A stretch of DNA of 52,915 nt. Origin: Calothrix sp. MO_192.B10 (GTDB taxonomy: Bacteria; Cyanobacteriota; Cyanobacteriia; Cyanobacteriales; Nostocaceae). Within the stretch, counting starts at the first letter, position 1. Every line of letters starts with the position of its first letter. The notes under the pieces were generated by a model, which searched no databases, was not told the DNA's origin, and saw nothing but the letters and a program-made list of their open reading frames with translations. The stretch covers positions 1 to 52,915 of the forward strand of contig JASJDS010000055.1 in NCBI GenBank assembly GCA_030065055.1, given 5' to 3'. This document shows, in pieces, positions 3,907 through 46,550 of this stretch. A program made the position numbers and the translations under genes.

Positions 3907-5340
3907 ATGGAACCCATAACGCAAGCGATTCTGTTGAGCATTTGCGGGAACTTTGCAACGGACGCAATTCGTACTTCTTACGTGGCACTCAAGAAGGCTT
4001 TAACAACCAAATACGGTGAGGATTCTGATTTAATTTTGGCTGTCAATAAATTAGAAGAAGCACCAGATAGTGATGATCGTAAAGAAACATTAGAAGCTAA
4101 AGTTAAGCTTGCTAAAGCGAATAATGATTCAGAATTATTACAGTTAGCACATAAGTTACATAAGTTATTGGACAATTTCCTGAAAGAAGGCTTTAAAGAA
4201 GCTGCATTGTTAGAAGAAGTCTTTGACATAGCAGTGTCCAAATATCCAGACGGCATGAGTCTAAGAGAAGCGGTACAATCAATTCCTGCAATAACAGAAT
4301 ACGCAAAATACCAAGCGAAACAAGAAGTTAATGAGTTTGCAGAGTCTATCTTTAATACACTTGTTTCGATGGGATATGGCAAGGTAAAAAAGGAGGAAGT
4401 AGTTGGAATATTTCAAAACAGAATCGAAACTTTTTTTGTACCGAATACAGATGAATCTGAATCAATATCGGAAATTAGCGAAAATCAAACTTCATTAAAT
4501 CAAACTTCATTTTGGGATTGTATAAATGATTTTGGATCAGCAGTATTAAGATTTATGTTTACTAAGGATATTAATGATGATAAACCCAGGAACGAGGTAG
4601 GAAATGAAGCTGAGAGTTCTTCTCAAGAGAAATCAGCAGAGGCAGAGAACGAAGCTGAGAGTTCTTCTCAAGAGAAATCAGCAGAGGCAGAGAACGAAGC
4701 TGAGAGTTCTTCTCAAGAGAAATCAGCAGAGGCAGAGAACGAAACTGAGAGTTCTTCTCAAGAGAAATCAGCAGAGGTAGAGAATGAAGTTGAGAGTTCT
4801 GCTCAAGAGAGTGAAGCAGAGGTAGGAAAGGAAGTTAATAAAGAAGCTACAGAGAACGGAGGGAATAATTGGGAGAAGTATGAAAACGAGACGGCAGAAA
4901 CTTCTAATACTGTGAATAGGGAAGGGCACATTGTAGAGTCAGAGTCAGAGCCAGAATCACTTCAGTCACAGGAGTCAGCAGAGTCACAAAACGAGCCAAT
5001 TCCTAAATTTGACATTCCTGACATTTACTTGCAAGAGACAAGTGTACCAGAGAATCTAACACAGAGACTGAAGTCACGAAACGAGCCAATTCCTAAATTT
5101 GACATTACTGACATTTTATCGGTGGAGACAAGTACACCACAGAATCTAACACAGAGACTGAAGTCACAAAACGAGCCAATTCCTGAAATAACCTCGGTCG
5201 AACCATCTGAACCGGAACAACCGGAACCGTCATTGGAACCACCGCCCGCGATGCGGAGGGATCGCACAGCGATCAGCGACAACAGGATAATAAGTAATGA
5301 GAACTCAACTCCATCCATTCAAGGGCAGAAGCAAACATAA
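3907..5340 (+). CDS. Effector-associated-like protein with two tandem-repeat blocks
   Basis: A 477-aa protein. Residues 1-90 form a helical domain (TQAILLSICGNFATDAIRTS..., then a DSDLILAVNKLEEAPDS segment) of a type I associate with the N-termini of cyanobacterial conflict or STAND proteins. Residues ~90-200 are helical. From residue 232 there are five nearly identical 15-aa repeats (ENEAESSSQEKSAEA). After an acidic linker there are two copies of a 30-aa repeat starting at residue 361 (NEPIPKFDI...NLTQRLKS) plus a third truncated copy, ending in a proline-rich tail. No catalytic motif is visible. It looks like an adaptor or scaffold carrying repeated short linear motifs. Function unassigned. 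Confidence 0.65.
   Translation: MEPITQAILLSICGNFATDAIRTSYVALKKALTTKYGEDSDLILAVNKLEEAPDSDDRKETLEAKVKLAKANNDSELLQLAHKLHKLLDNFLKEGFKEAALLEEVFDIAVSKYPDGMSLREAVQSIPAITEYAKYQAKQEVNEFAESIFNTLVSMGYGKVKKEEVVGIFQNRIETFFVPNTDESESISEISENQTSLNQTSFWDCINDFGSAVLRFMFTKDINDDKPRNEVGNEAESSSQEKSAEAENEAESSSQEKSAEAENEAESSSQEKSAEAENETESSSQEKSAEVENEVESSAQESEAEVGKEVNKEATENGGNNWEKYENETAETSNTVNREGHIVESESEPESLQSQESAESQNEPIPKFDIPDIYLQETSVPENLTQRLKSRNEPIPKFDITDILSVETSTPQNLTQRLKSQNEPIPEITSVEPSEPEQPEPSLEPPPAMRRDRTAISDNRIISNENSTPSIQGQKQT
4600..4824 (+). repeat. Five tandem 45-bp coding repeats
   Basis: Units at 4600, 4645, 4690, 4735 and 4780 each encode ENEAESSSQEKSAEA or a close variant. Units 2 and 3 are identical in DNA, and unit 5 is the most diverged, which indicates recent slippage or duplication. 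Confidence 0.95.
4987..5187 (+). repeat. 90-bp coding repeat, two copies plus a fragment
   Basis: 4987-5076 and 5077-5166 encode 30-aa units beginning NEPIPKFDI and ending NLTQRLKS; 5167-5187 starts a third copy. The conserved motif at each unit end suggests a repeated binding peptide. Confidence 0.9.
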
Positions 5341-5784: not shown

Positions 5785-6367
5785 TTAACACCTCCCGTCC
5801 CAAACGTTGGTAATCACTCCAGGCAATCTTACCCATTCTGTCGCCCGACTCATAAACAGTTACACCCTTCAATGCTGCACGTTGGTAAGCTGTGAAGCGA
5901 CGAATTACAAACGGGTAAACTTGTAAACCTGCATCCTCTAAGAATTTAATTGCCTCCTCCCCCATCTTTGAAGGTTTGGGAGGCACTATATTCAGCAGTA
6001 TGTTGTAATTCGCCCCCTGGGGCATCGCCTTTAACATCAAAATTAAAGCATCAAGAGCAAGTGCATCTGGAGTGGTGGGAAGAATCAATTTATCACACCC
6101 CTTTAATAGTGCTTCTAAGTCTTCGGGTTCTGGTCGCGCTTTGGTGTCAATCACTATATGCTCATAACTTTTAGCAAGCTTAATTGCTGATTGTTCATCA
6201 CATAAGTCACAGGGAAGTTTACCCCGTCCTGCCCAACTGCTAGCACTACGGTTTGGATCACCATCCACAATTAGGGTCTTGTCATATTGGCTGAGATAAG
6301 CCGCTAAATGCACAGCAGTGGTGGTTTTGCCAATTCCGCCCTTAAAGCCTAATATCGTTACTATCAT
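5777..6367 (-). CDS. parA: ParA-family partition ATPase
   Basis: A 196-aa ATPase of the short ParA/MinD type without the N-terminal HTH found in larger ParAs. The deviant Walker A box FKGGIGKTTT lies near the N-terminus, the Walker A' strand is TLIVDGDPNRSA, and Walker B is HIVIDTKARP. I chose the ATG at 6367 because the longer start at 6391 would place the GGATACCTGGATAT repeat inside the gene. It forms an operon with the RHH-like partner downstream. Role: segregation of this plasmid by ATP-driven movement on the nucleoid. Confidence 0.9.
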   Translation of the reverse strand: MIVTILGFKGGIGKTTTAVHLAAYLSQYDKTLIVDGDPNRSASSWAGRGKLPCDLCDEQSAIKLAKSYEHIVIDTKARPEPEDLEALLKGCDKLILPTTPDALALDALILMLKAMPQGANYNILLNIVPPKPSKMGEEAIKFLEDAGLQVYPFVIRRFTAYQRAALKGVTVYESGDRMGKIAWSDYQRLGREVLNV

Positions 6368-21732: not shown

Positions 21733-22575
21733 TCACTCATCATCTGGCAAATACAACCCACTACTATCAGTAGGTCTGGCGTGGAGGTACATTTCAGTAA
21801 TCGCCACCGAACTATGACCCAAAGTCTTTTGCAACAAATGTATCGGCGCACCTCTATCTAAACTATGGGATGCGTGAGAATGCCTTAACCAGTGGGGGCT
21901 AACATTACCTTCCAGCCCTGCTCGTTTGGCTGCATTCTTGACTATATGAAAAACCATACTTCTACACAGATGACCGCCCTTAGCAGAAACAAACACCGGG
22001 TCATCTTTTTTAGCATTATCCTTTAACTCTTGAATATCTCGCCATACCCCTTTCCCCACCAACACAGTCCTGGTTTTATCACCCTTACCAAACACGGTAA
22101 TTTGTCCGCCGTCGCCTCTAGCTTTGAGGTCACGCCATTTGAGGTCGCATAATTCCGATACCCGTAAACCTGCAAAATAAAGTAGGCGAACCAGAGTGCG
22201 ATCGCGTCCATTTGTAGTGGAATCTATCAGTAAATGTACTTCCTCTTGAGTTAAAATTCGTTCTGCCAATCTGTTTTTTGCCTTGGGTGATTTAACCAAC
22301 ACTCCCAAGTTAGCCGATACCACCCCCAACTGTTTAGCGAAGGAAAACAGACTTTTAATTGCACCAATAGCCACCCTCTGGCTGTTGTCAGAACTCTTTA
22401 AACTCATCTGCCACAGCTGAAATTCCATGAGAGTGACTTCCCCCAGGGGTTTATTACCAACCGAGGTAAAAAATCGTGTGGCATAGCGACGATACCCATC
22501 AACGGTATTGGCACTTTTACCGTGCAGCCAGAGGTCAATGAGTTCGGTATTAGTGAGGGTCGAAGCATTCAACAT
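21733..22575 (-). CDS. XerC/D-like tyrosine recombinase
   Basis: A 280-aa integrase of the XerC/D type. It has an N-terminal SAM-like domain (residues ~10-85) and a catalytic domain with Arg (AGLRVSEL), Lys (GKGDKTR), His-x-x-Arg (HWLRHSHASH), His (LGHSS) and Tyr (EMYLHARP). All six catalytic positions are present. Plasmid-borne Xer recombinases resolve dimers. Relics of another recombinase lie at 23612 and 40860, so this may be the one surviving copy. It overlaps no other gene; the next upstream gene encodes an RHH protein. Confidence 0.92.
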   Translation of the reverse strand: MLNASTLTNTELIDLWLHGKSANTVDGYRRYATRFFTSVGNKPLGEVTLMEFQLWQMSLKSSDNSQRVAIGAIKSLFSFAKQLGVVSANLGVLVKSPKAKNRLAERILTQEEVHLLIDSTTNGRDRTLVRLLYFAGLRVSELCDLKWRDLKARGDGGQITVFGKGDKTRTVLVGKGVWRDIQELKDNAKKDDPVFVSAKGGHLCRSMVFHIVKNAAKRAGLEGNVSPHWLRHSHASHSLDRGAPIHLLQKTLGHSSVAITEMYLHARPTDSSGLYLPDDE

Positions 22576-22627: not shown

Positions 22628-23215
22628 TTATTTAATTGGATGGTACAGACCATCAGAGCTATATCTCCACTTACGTTTACTGGGGTCACGCTCACTACAC
22701 CATTTCTCAAATTCTTCTTTGCCCATAGTTGAGCGTCTGTCTTGCAATGTGGAAACATTTGTACTGAGGCGCATTGCCAATTTCTCTTCATCCAGGGGTT
22801 CGAGTTGAGGTGGTTGGGAGTTGTACTGGTAAGGTGAATAACGACGCGATGACCCTCTAGAACCAGTACGCCCTGCATTTACACTCGATCGCAGCTGCAT
22901 CAATGCCCCTTCAAACCGTGCAAGTCGGTTGGTTAATTCTTCCAGTTTGGCTTCCACTGAAGTTAACCTGGCTTTTTGTTGGGAATTAGTACTTGACCCA
23001 ATGCTTTCCTTGAAACGGAAAAACTCTTCTTCCAGTTGGGCAAGACGGACTTCTACACTCGCTTCTACACCGGGTACATCCCCCAAGATGTGGTGCAAGC
23101 CTTGGATTACCAATTCGGTGGCGGTGGTTTTGCGTTCCTTGGCAGCTTTACGCAACTCTGCTGTTAAGGATTTGGGGAGTTTAAAGTTGATTGATTCCCG
23201 TTCAGTTGAAGGCAT
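22628..23215 (-). CDS. RHH DNA-binding protein with coiled coil
   Basis: A 195-aa protein from the ATG at 23215; a longer frame reaches 23305. Residues 8-40 (SINFKLPKSLTAELRKAAKERKT...) are a ribbon-helix-helix. A coiled coil spans residues ~55-110, then a Gly/Ser/Tyr-rich linker and a charged C-terminus. The inverted repeat CTACACC...GGTGTAG (23218-23224 and 23238-23244) sits just before the start. The gene lies 52 bp upstream of the recombinase gene. It may be an accessory or directionality factor of the recombinase, or a plasmid copy regulator. Confidence 0.7.
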   Translation of the reverse strand: MPSTERESINFKLPKSLTAELRKAAKERKTTATELVIQGLHHILGDVPGVEASVEVRLAQLEEEFFRFKESIGSSTNSQQKARLTSVEAKLEELTNRLARFEGALMQLRSSVNAGRTGSRGSSRRYSPYQYNSQPPQLEPLDEEKLAMRLSTNVSTLQDRRSTMGKEEFEKWCSERDPSKRKWRYSSDGLYHPIK

Positions 23216-23217
23216 TT

Positions 23218-23244
23218 CTACACCATGTATAGAGACTGGTGTAG
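23218..23244. promoter_or_regulatory. Inverted repeat CTACACC-N13-GGTGTAG before the RHH gene
   Basis: Perfect 7-bp arms (23218-23224 and 23238-23244) overlap the region just upstream of the start at 23215, the place where an RHH repressor would bind its own promoter. Confidence 0.45.
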
Positions 23245-23283
23245 ATAGCTTACAATGCCAATAACCCACACCCAAAAGCGAAT

Positions 23284-23288
23284 CAACC
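23284..23288. repeat. Target-site duplication CAACC, left copy
   Basis: CAACC directly precedes TGTCGG and recurs at 23607-23611 directly after CCGACA. Confidence 0.85.
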
Positions 23289-23606
23289 TGTCGGTTCGCG
23301 GACAAAGTGAAAATTGTCGCAGACTACTTGAAAATATTCGCGGACTAATTGAAAATTATGTTTGTGTAACCCTGATTTTTTCGTAGTAAACGGCGCGAAC
23401 ATTCTACAAAATTATTACACCAAAGCCTTATCCTATATGATTTTTGCGACTTTTATTGTGAATTGAGCGGAAAATTTCACTTAGTCCGCGATTTTGGTAG
23501 GAAATTTTCATCTAGTCCGCGACATTTTTTCATTTAGTGCGCGACATGAAGAGCCAGAACCCCTATAGCTCCGTTAAATTTTTTTCAATTAGTCCGCGAA
23601 CCGACA
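23289..23606. mobile_element. 318-bp cargo-less Tn7/CAST-like mini-element
   Basis: The ends are TGTCGGTTCGCGGAC and its reverse complement GTCCGCGAACCGACA. A 5-bp duplication CAACC flanks them. The left end has three motifs of the form TCGCGGACTAATTGAAAAT (near 23296, 23316 and 23337). The right end has four in inverted orientation (near 23474, 23504, 23525 and 23580), each ending AGTCCGCGA or close to it. A 3-plus-4 arrangement behind TGT/ACA tips with a 5-bp duplication is the layout of Tn7-type TnsB-bound ends. There is no ORF in the ~100-bp centre. It must have been moved by a transposase supplied elsewhere. Confidence 0.85.
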
Positions 23607-23611
23607 CAACC
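23607..23611. repeat. Target-site duplication CAACC, right copy
   Basis: Second copy of CAACC, flanking the mini-element. Confidence 0.85.
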
Positions 23612-23790
23612 CGGATATGCCACAGATGAACTACGGCGGCGTTGGATGTTACGGATGGGAATAAAAGGTGCGGTGTAGAAGTTAAGCAGACACGCTGACC
23701 CCAGGACGTTGATGATTTATGATGACAACAGGCAGAAGGTGCAGAAGGAAATTAGCGACTTACGATTTGGGGTTGATTTAGTGCGAACAA
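23612..23790 (+). pseudogene. Frame-shifted C-terminal relic of a tyrosine recombinase
   Basis: Pieces read ALDVTDG in one frame, then KLSRHADPRTLMIYDDNRQ in another after an internal stop, matching the part of a phage-type integrase that includes the nucleophile Tyr (MIYD). The same sequence with intact phase occurs at 40870-41042. The relic is too short to be active and is disrupted by a frameshift. It shows that an integrase-bearing element once lay here; its left part was lost or separated by the mini-element. Confidence 0.75.
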
Positions 23791-23797
23791 GCGTGTT

Positions 23798-25153
23798 TTA
23801 AGCACGAGCTAGAATTTTTAAGGGGTCGCCAGGAAAATCATCAAAAATTGCTCCTCGTTGAATTAGGTCAAGCTTCATTTGCTCTGAAATTCCTTGGTTA
23901 CTTCCGAATCTAGCTTCTTTCACTTTGGCACCCCCCAGGTAGGCACCCCCCAGGTAGGCACCACGCAGGTCGGCACCACGCAGGTCGGCACCACACAGGT
24001 CGGCATCACGCAGGTCGGCACCACGCAGGTTGACACCAAACAGGTTGGCACCACGCAGCTTGCCACCACGCAGATTGGAACCACGCAGGTTGGCACCACT
24101 CAGGTTGGCACGAAACAGGTTGGCACCACTCAGGTTGGCAAGATCCAGGCTAGCACCACGCAGGTTGGCAAGATCCAGGCTAGCACCACGCAGGTTGGCA
24201 TCACGCAAATTGACACCATGTAGGTTTTGAGAATCAATTGGGTGATTGATAATCTCCCATACTAGACGCCATCTGCGATCAATCTCTGTTTTCTCATCAA
24301 TTTTTGCACCACGCAGGTTAGCACCACGCAGGTCGGCATCCCCCAGGTTGGAACCGCGTAGGTCGGCACCACGCAGGTTGGCATTACGCAGGCTGGCATT
24401 AAGCAGGTTGGTACCAAACAGGTTGGCATTACGCAGGTTGGAACCACTCAAGTTGACACCACTCAGGTTGGCACTAAACAGGTCTGCATCATGCAGGTTG
24501 GCACCACGCAGGTTAGCACCACGCAGTTTGCTATCACGTAGGTTGGCATCAAACAGTTCTGCATCATGCAGGTCTCGATTATTAATTGGGTGATTGATAA
24601 TCTCCCATACTAGACGCCATCTGTTATCAATCTCTGTTTTCTCATCAATTGTTGCACCCCCCAGCTCGGCACCCCCCAGCTCGGCATCACGCAGGTTGGT
24701 ACCACGCAGGTTGGTACCAAACAGGTAGGCATTACGCAAATTGGCACCAAACAGGTTGGCATCACTTAGGTTGGCACCACTCAGGTAGGCATCACGCAAA
24801 TTGACACCACTCAGGTTGGAACCACGCAGGTCGGCATCACCCAGATTGGCACCACGCAGGTCGGCACTACGCAAGTCAATATTGTTTAAGTTAAAATTAT
24901 CTTTTTTGAGAATTTCCAATAACTGTTTCGAGTCCGTAAGCCTTTCCTTCTCCCTCCAAGCAACAAATACAATCCCTGCTAACAAACTAAAGGTTATAAC
25001 CCACCCCGGTGGATTGCCTCCTGTAAGCAGCAGCACAAGCATCAAGCCACCAAAGACCACAGCACCTTGCTTTAACAGCGAAGTTAATCCTAACCTCGCT
25101 TCGTCATACAAACTAATTTGCTTGTGGTTGATTTGAGTCATACCCTGTAACAC
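23798..25153 (-). CDS. Pentapeptide-repeat protein with N-terminal membrane segments
   Basis: A 451-aa protein. Residues ~28-66 form two hydrophobic segments. From residue ~90 on it consists of A(D/N)LxX pentapeptide repeats, which form a right-handed quadrilateral beta-helix. The helix is interrupted twice by a short segment (EKTEID-RWRLVWEIINHPI), seen near residues 167 and 287. These repeated interruptions are similar to each other, which points to internal duplication. Function unknown; members of this family can mimic DNA or act as scaffolds. It follows a membrane protein gene by 2 bp in the same direction. Confidence 0.85.
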   Translation of the reverse strand: MLQGMTQINHKQISLYDEARLGLTSLLKQGAVVFGGLMLVLLLTGGNPPGWVITFSLLAGIVFVAWREKERLTDSKQLLEILKKDNFNLNNIDLRSADLRGANLGDADLRGSNLSGVNLRDAYLSGANLSDANLFGANLRNAYLFGTNLRGTNLRDAELGGAELGGATIDEKTEIDNRWRLVWEIINHPINNRDLHDAELFDANLRDSKLRGANLRGANLHDADLFSANLSGVNLSGSNLRNANLFGTNLLNASLRNANLRGADLRGSNLGDADLRGANLRGAKIDEKTEIDRRWRLVWEIINHPIDSQNLHGVNLRDANLRGASLDLANLRGASLDLANLSGANLFRANLSGANLRGSNLRGGKLRGANLFGVNLRGADLRDADLCGADLRGADLRGAYLGGAYLGGAKVKEARFGSNQGISEQMKLDLIQRGAIFDDFPGDPLKILARA

Positions 25154-40859: not shown

Positions 40860-41042
40860 GTGAACCTACACAGGATAAGGCTCTGGAGTTCAATTACGGC
40901 GGCGCTTGATGCCACGAATGGGGATATTAGGAAAGTTCAGAAACTTAGCAAGCACGCCGACCCCAGGACGTTGATGATTTATGACAACAACTGTCAACGA
41001 GCGCAGAAGGAGATATCGAATTTATTAGATGGGTTGGTTTGA
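40860..41042 (+). pseudogene. C-terminal relic of a tyrosine recombinase
   Basis: A 60-aa frame. LHRIRLWSSITAALDATNGD followed by KLSKHADPRTLMIYD covers the HxxR and the catalytic-Tyr region of a phage-type integrase, but the N-terminal ~75% is missing. It is the same family as the frame-shifted relic at 23612-23790, with an intact reading frame here. Non-functional. Confidence 0.75.
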
Positions 41043-41912: not shown

Positions 41913-44900
41913 ATGGAAAAACTAAAGTTAAATTTATCTCCGATAGGTGGTATAAATTTTAGAATTTATGCTGATAAGTATGGGGAAGAAGAATCATTAT
42001 TACCCTTTTCAGATGGTAATGAAGATTCTAATCTATTCACGGTGCTTAATGTACTCAATACATTTAATCCTAAATACAAACATCGCAAAGGAAACGATAA
42101 GGATTGGATGGTAAGAGAAGGAATTCTCTGTGAGGATAAGCCTTTTTTTCACGATAAGATGCGGGACAATATAGGTCAAAAACTCTATGATGCTCTGTTT
42201 CCCGACAAAATTAGAGAAGCACTAAATCAAAAACTCGGAAAGGCTGGTTCAAAGGAAGATTTACATCTTCAAATTCAGTATGATGCTGACGCGATTCAAG
42301 AATCTAGATTATCTTTATACCCTTGGCAATTAGTAAACAATGGACAGGATTTTTTAGCCAAACGCCGAGTGATTCTTTCTTATTTAATAGCTCATAGAAA
42401 TTTACTTGCAGCAGGAAAAAGAAAAGTTAAGCAGATTAAAATTTTATTTGTATCATCTAGCGCATCTGAAAAGGATAATCAGAAACTAAAGAATAAAGAA
42501 TTATTTATACGTAATGGCTTAAAAAAAGCAGAACAAGAAGGTCATGCTTGTTTATTAACTTGGTATGAATTGAGTAAAGAAAAATCAACTTATAAAAAAC
42601 TTTCTGCTTATTTAACTGACAATATAAACGAGCAAGAAAAACTTCCTGACATAATCCATTTTGATGGACATGGTGTTTTTAAAAGACAGTGCAAAAATCC
42701 TTTCTGTCCTGAAAATGGAAGCAATAAAATTTTTTATCCTACTCATCGGAAAATATGTACACATTGTAAAACTCCTTTAAGTAGACCTGAAGGATTTATT
42801 CTTTTTGAGGATGATGAAGGAAATCCAGATTATATCAGTGCTGAAAGATTTGCCAATTTAGTAGCGATTAGTAAACCTGCATTAGTTGTTATAACTGCTT
42901 GTAAATCAGCTTTAGCTCATCAAAATGAGTCTGTTTTTAACGGAATTGCCCAAAGTGTACTTCGTGAAGTTCCAGCAGTTGTAGCCACATCATTTAATCT
43001 TAGTGAAGATAGTACAACTAATTTTGTAGAACAATTTTATCGCGCTTTAGGTGCTAAACAATCATTATTAAAAGCAGTGAAATTAGCATCTCAAGCGATG
43101 CGTTATTATGATTACGAATGGTATCGTCCAATTATTTTTCTGCGTCATGATGGAGATGAAGATGGATACCTATTTGAGTTTTTTGACCAAAAATTAAATA
43201 TTGAAACTCAAAAACCAGATTGGGAAAAATCTCCTGCTGTTGATGTTTTTTTTGGGCGTGATAAAGAATTAAAGACACTAGAAAATTTGATTGTAGAAAA
43301 TAATTGTCGATTGGTGACAATTATTGGAATGGGTGGAATTGGTAAAACTGCTTTGGCAAAAAAACTTGCTGAAAAAATTCAAGGTGAGTTTAATTTTGTC
43401 ATCTGGAGAAGTCTGCGAGAAGCTCCTCCCTTAGACAAAATACTAAAAGATTTAATTAAATTTTTATCTAACCAACAAAAAAATGATTTACCTGATAACT
43501 TATCTGATGCAATCAATGTAATAATTCAAGATTATTTAAACCCTTCAAGCTGTCTTTTAATACTCGATAACGTCGAGTCAATTATGCAAAGTGGAGAGTT
43601 AACAGGACAATATCGAAAAGGATATGAAGATTATCGCAAACTTTTTGATGCGATTGGAGAACGAGAGCATAATAGTTGTTTATTATTAACTAGCCGAGAA
43701 AAACCGCAGAATCTAGAAAAACTAGCAAGTGAAGATGGAGCTGTTCGTTTTCGAGAATTGTCAGGTTTGAATTTTGGAGATGTACAGCAATTTTTTAATG
43801 GTATTTCTGTTTCAGAAAACGAATTAAAAGAAGTATGTAACTTATACAGTGGTAATCCTTTATTTTTGAAGTTAGCTGCCAAATATATTAAATATGAAAA
43901 GAGATTTCAAGGTAATATTGGGCAATTTTTAGAAGAAGCAAAATTTGTCATTGGTCAACCTCTTCGTGATTCTGAAGATGAACGAGATGCTATTCGTAAA
44001 ATGCTAGATTGGTATTTCAAACGTTTATCTGATGATAATCAATCAGATGAAGAACAAAAAGAAATTACATATTGGTTAGCGATTAATCGTGAACCTGTTT
44101 CGTTTTCAGAGCTTAAAGACGATATATTATTATCTTCATCAAAAGAAAATTTACCAAATACTCTACAAACTTTACAGCGAAGAATACCATTAGAAATAAG
44201 TGAAAATAATAAATACACTCTACAAAACTTACTAATCGAGTACATGACGTTTCGATTGGTTGAAGAAGTTTGTGATGAAATAAAAACTGGGCAAATTTTT
44301 ATTTTAAAAAGTCATACACTCCTTAAAGCACAAGCACCAGATTATATAAGAGAAACTCAAAAAAGACTTATTCTTAAACCACTTGTAGACAGATTTAATG
44401 ATTTTGATATATACATTGAAGATAAACTAGATGAAATTCTCGAAAGCTTGCCAAAACCTCGCCAATCTCGCCAAAAACCTAAACTACCAAAACCCAGTTA
44501 TGTAGTAGGGAATATTATCAATTTTTTGACCTATTTAGATATAGATTTAACTGGCTATGATTTTTCCAATCTAGCTATATGGCAAGCCTACTTACAAGGT
44601 GTACCTTTACACAATGTCAATTTTGCTAACACAAACTTTTCTAAATCAGTTTTTACTAAAACCTTAGGTCGGATTTGTTCTGTAGCTTTTAGTCCCGATG
44701 GTCAAATTTTAGCAATAAGTGATAGTAACAGAGAAATTCGTCTGTGGCAATTAACGGATGGCAAAGAACTTTGCATTTTGGAAGATCACGAGGGTTGGGC
44801 ATGGTCAATAGCATTTAGTCCTGATAGTCAAAAATTAGCTAGTGGGAGTGATGACCGAACGGTAAGACTATGGGATGTCAAGAACGGTTATTGTATCGGA

Positions 44901-46550
44901 ATTTTAGGGCGACATACTGAAGCAGTAAAGGGAGTTGCTATCAGTCCAGATGGTAAAATTCTTGCCAGTTGCGGTGATGACACAAAGATAAAATTATGGG
45001 ATATTAGCACCCATCAACTCCTCCAAACTTTAGAGGAACACACGGATTCTGTATGGTCAATCGCCTTTAGTCCAAAAGATAGTAAAACTCTTGTTAGTGG
45101 CAGCTATGACAAAACGGTGAAGCTATGGGATATCAGCACAGGTAAATGCCTCAAAACTTTGCAGGCGCATAGCTATGGGGTAAGATCTATTGCTTTCAGT
45201 TGTGATGATGAAACTGTCGCCAGTTGTAGCAAAGATCCAAAAGGAAAGGTGAAATTATGGAACATCAGGACGGGTCAATTACTAAAAACGTTGCAGGGAC
45301 ATACCAATCAAGTCCGTTGTGTTACCTTCAGTAGTGATGGTAACACACTCGCCAGTGGCGGTGAAGACCATACAGTAAGACTGTGGAATGTTAATACTGA
45401 TCGAAGTTTCCGAAAACTTTTGAAAGATACTCACAGTGTGTGGTCAATTGCTTTCAGTTCCGATGCTCAAACCCTCGCTAGTGGCACTTATGACCAAACA
45501 GTAAAGCTATGGGATATTAGTCAAGGTAACTGTCTCAAAACTTGGCAAGGACCAGCCAATCTGATTTTATCAATTGCTTTCAGTCCCGATGCTCAAACCC
45601 TCGCTAGTGGAAGTAGAGACAAAATGGTAAGACTATGGGATATAGATACTGGTCAATGTATCAATGCTTTTCAGGAACATACAGATTTGGTATGGTCAGT
45701 TGCTTTCAGTTGCGATGGCCAAACTCTCGCTAGTGCAGGCGATGACCAAACGGTTAAGTTGTGGGATGTTAGCAAGGGTGAGTGTATTAAAACTTTAAAA
45801 GCAACTGCTACTTCAGTGCGGTCATTGTCATTCAGCCCTGACGGTCAAACTTTAGCTTGTGGCAGTGGAGATGGATATATAAGAATTTGGAGGCTCATCA
45901 CAAGTCACAATTCCTCACAACCTTCTTTTCAGCCACATAATTCTGTTCGGGCGCATACTAATTGGGTATGGTCTTTATCATTCAGTCCTGATAGTAAAAT
46001 TCTAGCTAGTAGTAGTGGAGATGGAACAGTAAAATTATGGACTGTAGAAACAGGAGAATATCTCAAAACCTTGCATGAATCAACTAATTCAATTCGGGCA
46101 GTAGCTTTCAGTCCCGATGGTCAGTTCCTAGCCTGCGGCGGTGATGACCGAGTATTAAGATTGTTGGAAATTCGTACTGGTCAATGTATTAAAAAATTCC
46201 AAGGGCATACTGATTGGATTTGGTCAGTAGCTTTTAGTTTAGATAGTAAAACCCTTGCTAGTGGTAGTAAAGATAATACTGTAAGGTTATGGGATATAAA
46301 TACCGATCAATGCCACACTGTGACAGGGCATACCAATTTTGTTCGCACAGTAGCCTTTAGTCCCGATGAACAAATCCTAGCTAGTGGAGGTGATGATGAG
46401 ACTATTCAGCTTTGGGATATTCAGACAAGTAGTTGTGCCAGAATACTGAAAGCTAAAAGACTCTATGAGGGAATGAACATTACTGGTGTTAATGGCTTAA
46501 CTGAAGCTGAAAAAAATACACTGAAAATACTAGGGGCAATTGGGTCATAA
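41913..46550 (+). CDS. CHAT peptidase - NB-ARC - WD40 STAND protein
   Basis: A 1545-aa protein. Residues 1-~430 form a CHAT (caspase-like) domain: the catalytic His is in HFDGHG (His253) and Cys in ITACKSA (Cys330). Between them a C-x4-C and C-x2-C insert (QCKNPFC, CTHC) suggests zinc binding. Residues ~445-800 form an NB-ARC ATPase with GMGGIGKTAL (Lys478) and LLILDNV (Asp552). Residues ~919-1500 contain 14 WD40 repeats, enough for two propellers. Such proteins sense a signal via WD40, oligomerise by ATP and activate a protease, giving cell death or defence. An intact copy is present: catalytic dyad and P-loop are all kept. Confidence 0.92.
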   Translation: MEKLKLNLSPIGGINFRIYADKYGEEESLLPFSDGNEDSNLFTVLNVLNTFNPKYKHRKGNDKDWMVREGILCEDKPFFHDKMRDNIGQKLYDALFPDKIREALNQKLGKAGSKEDLHLQIQYDADAIQESRLSLYPWQLVNNGQDFLAKRRVILSYLIAHRNLLAAGKRKVKQIKILFVSSSASEKDNQKLKNKELFIRNGLKKAEQEGHACLLTWYELSKEKSTYKKLSAYLTDNINEQEKLPDIIHFDGHGVFKRQCKNPFCPENGSNKIFYPTHRKICTHCKTPLSRPEGFILFEDDEGNPDYISAERFANLVAISKPALVVITACKSALAHQNESVFNGIAQSVLREVPAVVATSFNLSEDSTTNFVEQFYRALGAKQSLLKAVKLASQAMRYYDYEWYRPIIFLRHDGDEDGYLFEFFDQKLNIETQKPDWEKSPAVDVFFGRDKELKTLENLIVENNCRLVTIIGMGGIGKTALAKKLAEKIQGEFNFVIWRSLREAPPLDKILKDLIKFLSNQQKNDLPDNLSDAINVIIQDYLNPSSCLLILDNVESIMQSGELTGQYRKGYEDYRKLFDAIGEREHNSCLLLTSREKPQNLEKLASEDGAVRFRELSGLNFGDVQQFFNGISVSENELKEVCNLYSGNPLFLKLAAKYIKYEKRFQGNIGQFLEEAKFVIGQPLRDSEDERDAIRKMLDWYFKRLSDDNQSDEEQKEITYWLAINREPVSFSELKDDILLSSSKENLPNTLQTLQRRIPLEISENNKYTLQNLLIEYMTFRLVEEVCDEIKTGQIFILKSHTLLKAQAPDYIRETQKRLILKPLVDRFNDFDIYIEDKLDEILESLPKPRQSRQKPKLPKPSYVVGNIINFLTYLDIDLTGYDFSNLAIWQAYLQGVPLHNVNFANTNFSKSVFTKTLGRICSVAFSPDGQILAISDSNREIRLWQLTDGKELCILEDHEGWAWSIAFSPDSQKLASGSDDRTVRLWDVKNGYCIGILGRHTEAVKGVAISPDGKILASCGDDTKIKLWDISTHQLLQTLEEHTDSVWSIAFSPKDSKTLVSGSYDKTVKLWDISTGKCLKTLQAHSYGVRSIAFSCDDETVASCSKDPKGKVKLWNIRTGQLLKTLQGHTNQVRCVTFSSDGNTLASGGEDHTVRLWNVNTDRSFRKLLKDTHSVWSIAFSSDAQTLASGTYDQTVKLWDISQGNCLKTWQGPANLILSIAFSPDAQTLASGSRDKMVRLWDIDTGQCINAFQEHTDLVWSVAFSCDGQTLASAGDDQTVKLWDVSKGECIKTLKATATSVRSLSFSPDGQTLACGSGDGYIRIWRLITSHNSSQPSFQPHNSVRAHTNWVWSLSFSPDSKILASSSGDGTVKLWTVETGEYLKTLHESTNSIRAVAFSPDGQFLACGGDDRVLRLLEIRTGQCIKKFQGHTDWIWSVAFSLDSKTLASGSKDNTVRLWDINTDQCHTVTGHTNFVRTVAFSPDEQILASGGDDETIQLWDIQTSSCARILKAKRLYEGMNITGVNGLTEAEKNTLKILGAIGS
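44667..46440 (+). repeat. Fourteen WD40 repeats (coding)
   Basis: Fourteen units of ~126 bp each with the pattern SxAFSPDxxxLASGSxDxTVxLWD. Several adjacent units share long near-identical DNA (AGTGGCA, CCCTCGCTAGTGG), a sign of recent expansion. Confidence 0.9.

Follow-up and report, generated by a model that had tools for sequence, protein, structure and literature searches.

A gene-free element with Tn7-like ends

The window, a stretch of 52,915 nucleotides from Calothrix sp. MO_192.B10, contains a gene-free element of 318 bp whose ends form an exact 15-bp terminal inverted repeat, the first 15 bases (TGTCGGTTCGCGGAC) being the exact reverse complement of the last 15 (Table 1). The element is flanked on both sides by CAACC. 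Motifs resembling TCGCGGACTAATTGAAAA are repeated at its ends, three at the left with a spacing of 21 bp and four at the right, in inverted orientation, with spacings of 31, 22 and 55 bp. The original prediction had described a cargo-less element with inverted ends, CAACC on either side and three plus four opposed motifs, and a re-check of the sequence confirmed every one of these features.

The TGT/ACA tips, together with repeated TnsB-type sites that are unequal between the two ends, give the element the end structure of a Tn7-like transposon. No ORF of note was found inside it, the longest stop-to-stop stretch being 53 codons, and it has no transposition protein genes of its own; it is therefore classed as a MITE and not as a full Tn7-like member. 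In random sequence of the length of the window, approximately 0.02 inverted pairs of exactly matching 15-nt words no more than 400 bp apart would be expected, and the end layout recurs in other genomes, so that the element cannot be attributed to chance. The window gave no Rfam match at the gathering threshold and no tRNA by ARAGORN.

Table 1. Features of the element and its surroundings, in window coordinates.
Feature	Positions	Strand	Match
Tyrosine recombinase downstream of the RHH-like gene	21733..22575	-	PF00589, 4e-35
Neighbouring (target) gene, 195-aa RHH-like protein; start codon 73 bp from left tip	22628..23215	-	
29-bp palindrome TCTACACCA-N11-TGGTGTAGA, 9/9 arm pairs, between RHH start codon and element	23217..23245	.	
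Target-site duplication, left copy CAACC	23284..23288	.	
318-bp Tn7-like MITE; left, tnsA-type end at 23289	23289..23606	+	
15-bp terminal inverted repeat, left	23289..23303	+	
TnsB-site-like motif L1	23296..23313	+	
TnsB-site-like motif L2	23317..23334	+	
TnsB-site-like motif L3	23338..23355	+	
TnsB-site-like motif R4, innermost	23474..23491	-	
TnsB-site-like motif R3	23505..23522	-	
TnsB-site-like motif R2	23527..23544	-	
TnsB-site-like motif R1, outermost	23582..23599	-	
15-bp terminal inverted repeat, right	23592..23606	-	
Target-site duplication, right copy CAACC	23607..23611	.	
Decayed C-terminal remnant of another tyrosine recombinase (KLSRHADPRTLMIYDDNR), right of element	23632..23739	+	

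Genes around the element

The product of the neighbouring gene looks, by eye, ribbon-helix-helix-like at its N-terminus, and is called RHH-like here for that reason. A Pfam scan of the 195-aa protein returned no RHH family, nor any other Pfam family above its cut-off, while its AlphaFold2 model is weak (mean pLDDT 69, pTM 0.32) and produced no PDB match at E <= 0.001 in Foldseek. Genes of this family occur in 206 of the 217 family genomes and in 77 plasmid records, and some of those occupied by an element lie on chromosome-sized contigs (G047:C1, G074:C1). The recombinase that follows the RHH-like gene is Xer-like, the XerA and XerD models scoring below their cut-offs.

For a conserved stretch of 100 bp in the right flank of the element, a noncoding element was considered and rejected, because the translated stretch resembles the C-terminus of a tyrosine recombinase. 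A query containing this remnant matched 75 of the 217 family genomes, and the copy that was checked (L353) is coding sequence. A second decayed C-terminal remnant of a tyrosine recombinase lies at 40892-40991. Elsewhere, the window encodes a 451-aa pentapeptide-repeat protein adjoining the element (23798-25153, minus strand), a 1545-aa WD40-repeat protein (41913-46550) and a protein with a HetE-N domain (3907-5340).

Autonomous relatives are bounded by the same ends

When up to 2 mismatches are allowed, the tip pattern is present in 65 of the 217 genomes of the family, to which Nostoc and Anabaena also belong, and DNA related to the element (E <= 1) was found in 16 of 72,556 plasmid records, all of them Nostocales by name. 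In a broader scan of contigs for the tip pattern the matches listed were mixed with unrelated bacteria, and 12 cyanobacterial loci were examined. A single copy of the 318-bp element was found in the host assembly, which is a draft; another species of the host's genus has two, one at 92% identity and a partial one at 84%.

In some cases two paired tips enclose about 6 kb of DNA. Two such copies, each of 6006 bp and with identical proteins, are carried by Nostoc sp. 'Peltigera membranacea cyanobiont' N6, one on plasmid pNPM2 and one on an 8.2-Mb contig, and a third, of 5980 bp, is carried by G134 (the three together being L151-L153). These elements encode tnsA, tnsB, tnsC, tniQ and a 147-aa protein of no known family, and no cas gene is present among their ORFs of at least 100 aa. 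In L152 the five ORFs of at least 100 aa are precisely these, with Pfam domains assigned to TnsA (PF08722), TnsB (Mu-transpos_C, with rve just below its cut-off), TnsC (TniB) and TniQ, and the annotation of pNPM2 agrees on all four transposition proteins. The TniQ of these relatives is only 264 aa long.

The correspondence between the window element and the 6-kb elements extends to the placement of the motifs, whose offsets are common to all (7, 28 and 49/50 at the left; 7, 62, 84 and 115 at the right), and to the sequence of the ends, the first 68 bp being 88% and the last 137 bp 82% identical to those of L152. The middle of the window element has no match to L152. A sister end type, in L155, likewise bounds TnsA, TnsB, TnsC and TniQ genes. 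Because its ends also bound tnsA/tnsB/tnsC/tniQ elements of 6 kb, the 318-bp element is identified as a Tn7-like MITE, and these full-length elements support the predicted cargo-less, Tn7-type mini-element with asymmetric site arrays. A search for full-length elements with matching ends had been proposed for the host genome itself; they were found in relatives, while the host assembly yielded only the window copy.

The 147-aa gene lies at 5814-6257 (minus strand) of L152, and is also present in the 1.4-kb derivative L158, in L222 and in L225. A third end type, with identical motif offsets (7, 63, 117) at both ends, was seen on the tnsABC-tniQ elements L327 and L333.

Affinity to CRISPR-associated transposons

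The closest solved proteins to the TnsB of the family are those of Pse (3.5e-89) and Tn6677 (2e-79), compared with 7e-30 for a ShCAST-type TnsB. Its TnsC is closest to VchTnsC (2.5e-44), and its TniQ to that of 7u5d (7e-12). Here, Pse, Tn6677 and 7u5d represent type I-F3, and the ShCAST-type TnsB the V-K side. L152 carries TnsA and has no cas gene among its ORFs of at least 100 aa. By these ORFs it is neither a type V-K CAST, which would have Cas12k and CRISPR and no TnsA, nor a type I-F3 CAST, which would have type I-F Cascade genes.

These results bear on the possibility that the 318-bp element is a relic of a V-K CRISPR-associated transposon, moved by a Cas12k system of the host. The TGT/ACA tips, asymmetric sites and 5-bp duplication would all suit such an origin, and in PADLOC the only TnsB and TnsC matches are to V-K models, the best TniQ match being to I-F. 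Yet the autonomous relatives carry TnsA and have no cas gene among their ORFs, their TnsB is nearest to I-F3 proteins in the PDB, and the search of the host assembly for TniQ came out negative, so that this origin is judged extremely improbable. The ends had been predicted to be of Tn7/CAST type: the Tn7 part of that description holds, while V-K affiliation is not supported, because TnsB is nearest to I-F3 proteins and the 6-kb elements combine TnsA with an absence of cas genes among their ORFs.

Search for a helper transposase

Close relatives of the family TnsB (E < 1e-170) occur at 17 places in 13 of the 217 genomes. In the host genome, a draft of 96% completeness, no TnsB of the family type was found at E <= 1e-30. 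Similarly, among 11 genomes searched for TniQ (PF06527), none was found in the host or in G001, G002, G009, G058 and G206; the other five were positive, among them the positive control G124 with six matches, and 14 control genomes were negative. The prediction that a helper transposase is encoded elsewhere in the host was consequently not borne out in this assembly.

A TnsAB-TnsC-TniQ operon beside a MITE on pC052_C was also considered as a helper, and was rejected because it is flanked by different ends (TGTCACTG and CAGTGACA, compared by eye) with repeats of their own. This operon belongs to a separate Tn7-like element (L144, 2550-7700) with a fused TnsAB of 921 aa, TnsC, TniQ and GAAAGCATAAGTTGAGCAA repeats, which adjoins two neighbouring MITE-like copies. 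At L340, L346, L221 and L222, left ends of the present family are found 178-254 bp in front of tnsAB genes similar to that of the pC052_C element, one Tn7-like family here lying in or adjoining another.

Independent insertions, an empty site and the target duplication

The flanks just past the tip are unlike between most sites, and the RHH proteins encoded there are as little as 27-29% identical; several of the insertions are therefore regarded as separate. L146, a left-end fragment of the family on the Anabaena sp. 90 plasmid pANA01, and L188 have a common flank and were counted as one event. That shared flank, and the presence of RHH-like genes in 77 plasmid records, would also be expected if one or a few ancestral insertions upstream of an RHH gene had been spread by plasmid exchange and recombination. 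Such a history is nevertheless considered very unlikely, as tip flanks, duplications (CAACC, GATT, GTTT) and RHH subfamilies differ between sites, and as one close sister plasmid, contradicting it for that pair, has an uninterrupted site.

This empty site was observed directly. When the element and one 4-bp copy are removed from G058:C16, the remainder aligns without gaps to G006:C7 over 674 bp, of which 636 are identical. G006:C7 agrees in gene place with the Anabaena cylindrica plasmid pANACY.02, and its single 4-base copy is one base off from the 4-bp repeat of G058. No empty site of the window copy was found in the 217 genomes: among the matches listed outside the host none spans the junction, most covering query positions 44-147 (the recombinase remnant), with no more than three candidates scored per genome in the initial comparison. 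The proposed check for empty sites in relatives thus succeeded for the G058 copy and not for the window copy.

Among 32 complete elements, the duplication is 4 bp in 14, 5 bp in two (CAACC in the window and TTTCT in L163) and 3 bp in one, and is absent in 15, the three 6-kb copies L151-L153 included. The chance of 14 four-bp repeats in 32 is 8.5e-26 if the cases are independent; the 14 represent approximately 11 events, since flanks are shared in L164/L166 and in L167/L199/L207, and four of the 14 would become 5 bp with the terminal A included. A 5-bp duplication is described for Tn7 and for every element related to it (PMC11406308). The perfect 5-bp target duplication that had been predicted is real at the window element, although 4 bp is commoner among its relatives.

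A part of the left ends faces RHH-like and recombinase genes

The family's ends differ in what they adjoin. Within 300 bp of the tip, 13 of 54 left ends face an RHH-like gene or fragment and a further seven face a tyrosine recombinase, with all 20 genes reading away from the element; at the right, one of 41 ends (L263) adjoins an RHH-like gene. This asymmetry (20/54 versus 1/41) gives a Fisher p of 3e-5, or 7e-5 when L270, which entered the locus set through the RHH search, is left out. The ends were deduplicated among the fetched loci and the outward flank was up to 1200 bp, many being only 600 bp; it was shorter than 300 bp at one left end (163 bp) and two right ends (251 and 292 bp). Fragments account for three of the 13 RHH-facing ends (L186, L249, L253), and two of the seven recombinases are N-terminally truncated (L344, L258). 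L326, which has an irregular tip, stands outside the set of 54.

At 13 sites the distance from the left tip to the RHH start is 58-75 bp, two of the starts being ambiguous. These 13 include L172 (61 bp), which is outside the 54 left ends since its left end was untyped by the offset rule, and exclude both L186, whose RHH-facing tip has fragments only, and L029 (50 bp), which is of the third end type. At L270 the element stands 65 bp in front of the recombinase; the RHH gene there does not lie behind the recombinase but is convergent to it. Of 30 RHH loci, 23 have a tyrosine recombinase within 1.5 kb, whereas none does among 17 control loci, which surround other TnsB genes and were not plasmid-matched. 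Two autonomous copies with sister end types also face a recombinase gene, L325 at approximately 250 bp and L326 at 66 bp. A narrow distance, a single orientation and an empty site in a relative, as at an att-type target, are seen for part of the family, namely 20 of the 54 left ends.

An RHH gene was not seen at the left end of any complete autonomous element, the sole trace of such copies being TnsA remnants at two RHH loci (L248 and L255), which suggest that autonomous copies were once there. The complete copies L152 and L153 instead adjoin xisH, a gene linked by name to excision, which lies on the side of their left ends (L337, L338), and in G006 it is the right end of the element copy that adjoins an RHH gene.

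The element could alternatively be a Tn7-like MITE whose insertion is untargeted or loosely regional, RHH/recombinase modules being simply common at its destinations. Neither gene lies within 300 bp at 34 of the 54 left ends, the RHH family is widespread, being found in 206 of 217 genomes, and the cyanobacterial Tn5469 is described as apparently untargeted (PMC11406308). Conversely, untargeted insertion would not be expected to produce distances confined to 58-75 bp, a single orientation at the left-end sites, or the difference between left and right ends, and it is regarded as improbable.

A model for placement and its candidate signal

The explanation that is favoured, with a probability of roughly 0.7, is that the 318-bp element is a MITE of a cas-less Tn7-like family, brought to its site by a Tn7-type pathway that targets recombinase modules. 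It would be a non-autonomous miniature of the Nostocales family of tnsA-tnsB-tnsC-tniQ elements of 5-6 kb, having kept both TnsB-site arrays and lost all genes. By extension from Tn7 biology, TnsB would bind the end arrays, TnsA and TnsB supplied in trans by an autonomous relative would excise the MITE, and TnsC with the single short TniQ would choose the insertion site, TniQ acting as the selector. In the window, the outcome would be the insertion 73 bp upstream of the RHH-like gene, itself followed by the tyrosine recombinase, the tnsA side of the element being turned toward the RHH-like gene. The signal may be the palindrome in this interval, or the recombinase or RHH protein bound there.

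The 26 distinct RHH loci compared for the palindrome comprise 16 of the window's subgroup and 10 of a subgroup with GATATC repeats. In 14 of the former 16, TCT...AGA arms stand 28-30 bp apart and stop one base short of the start codon. A palindrome outperforms shuffled sequence at p <= 0.01 in five of the 26 loci and at p <= 0.05 in nine, all within the 16-locus subgroup; in none of the 10 GATATC-subgroup loci did one do so. In front of recombinase genes, a perfect palindrome with 10-bp arms was found in L326 only, of eight flanks searched. There, between the element end and the recombinase start, it has a 12-6-12 arrangement, which we take to be dif-like in layout. Among the other seven flanks, four have arms with one mismatch (inside the gene in L209 and L344) and three have none.

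In a version of the favoured explanation, TniQ would not read the DNA; TnsC/TniQ would be attracted by a protein of the module itself, either the RHH-like protein or the tyrosine recombinase, while it occupies its operator or recombination site. A comparable attraction is reportedly suggested for resolvases by the title of a paper on Tn5053 as a res-site hunter. A bound protein could explain why both RHH subgroups are used despite their unrelated repeats, why use extends to recombinase genes that lack a preceding RHH gene, and why L326 has its palindrome between end and recombinase start. However, the recombination site is putative, with a perfect palindrome in one of the eight flanks (L326), and this version is considered possible though rather doubtful.

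Comparison with known systems

The proposed placement of a cas-less Tn7-like MITE by a Tn7-type pathway invites comparison with Tn7 itself (TnsABC with TnsD, and attTn7), which shares with the present family TGT/ACA ends, asymmetric TnsB-type arrays, TnsA alongside TnsB, and insertion in one orientation within a narrow range of distances from a gene (see also PMC11406308). The differences are that a gene-free mini-element is involved, that RHH and recombinase genes take the place of glmS as neighbours, that a 4-bp duplication is commoner, and that TniQ has only 264 aa. The core of type I-F3 CAST systems (Tn6677, PseCAST) provides the nearest solved TnsB, TnsC and TniQ sequences; unlike these systems, the 6-kb elements have no cas gene among their ORFs and reside in cyanobacterial hosts.

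Tn5469 of Fremyella diplosiphon reportedly has a large transposase, in contrast to the separate TnsA and TnsB found here, and is set apart from the present family by description, not by sequence. It resembles the family in being cyanobacterial and Tn7-like, with a single TniQ and no cargo (PMC11406308). Anabaena sp. 90 has 147 type II MITEs, which are likewise short, gene-free Nostocales elements with inverted repeats and no known helper (PMC3542288).

Among the publications compared, judged by their titles and the openings of their abstracts, there was neither a Tn7-type MITE nor Tn7-like targeting of tyrosine-recombinase modules, the survey by Hsieh and Peters (2022) lying outside the comparison. 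The target classes given for Tn7 relatives in PMC11406308 are glmS, comM, yhiN, parE, tRNA genes and plasmid resolution sites. The Tn7-type MITE is itself a variation on a known theme, and the new part would be the target class: if the targeting is real, tyrosine-recombinase modules would join this list, reached with one short TniQ and no CRISPR, and would offer a compact target selector for study.

An analogy to such elements is offered by the Tn5053 family, which has a single TniQ and inserts beside recombinase modules, lacks TnsA, and resolves its cointegrates with a site-specific recombinase (PMC11406308). L152, conversely, carries TnsA and has no resolvase ORF, so that Tn5053's combination of no TnsA, its own resolvase and insertion at res sites does not apply to it, and the neighbours in the present family are tyrosine recombinases. 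It is tentatively proposed, at somewhat less than even odds, that these elements form a cas-less cyanobacterial Tn7 lineage that hunts tyrosine-recombinase modules, a TnsA-bearing counterpart of the res-site hunter Tn5053 whose insertions point their tnsA end at the module, lie some 60-75 bp from the RHH start and often have a duplication of 4 bp instead of 5 bp, and whose MITEs mark the hunted sites after the transposase has been lost. Gene-free copies such as that in the window would then constitute a record of past targeting across many genomes.
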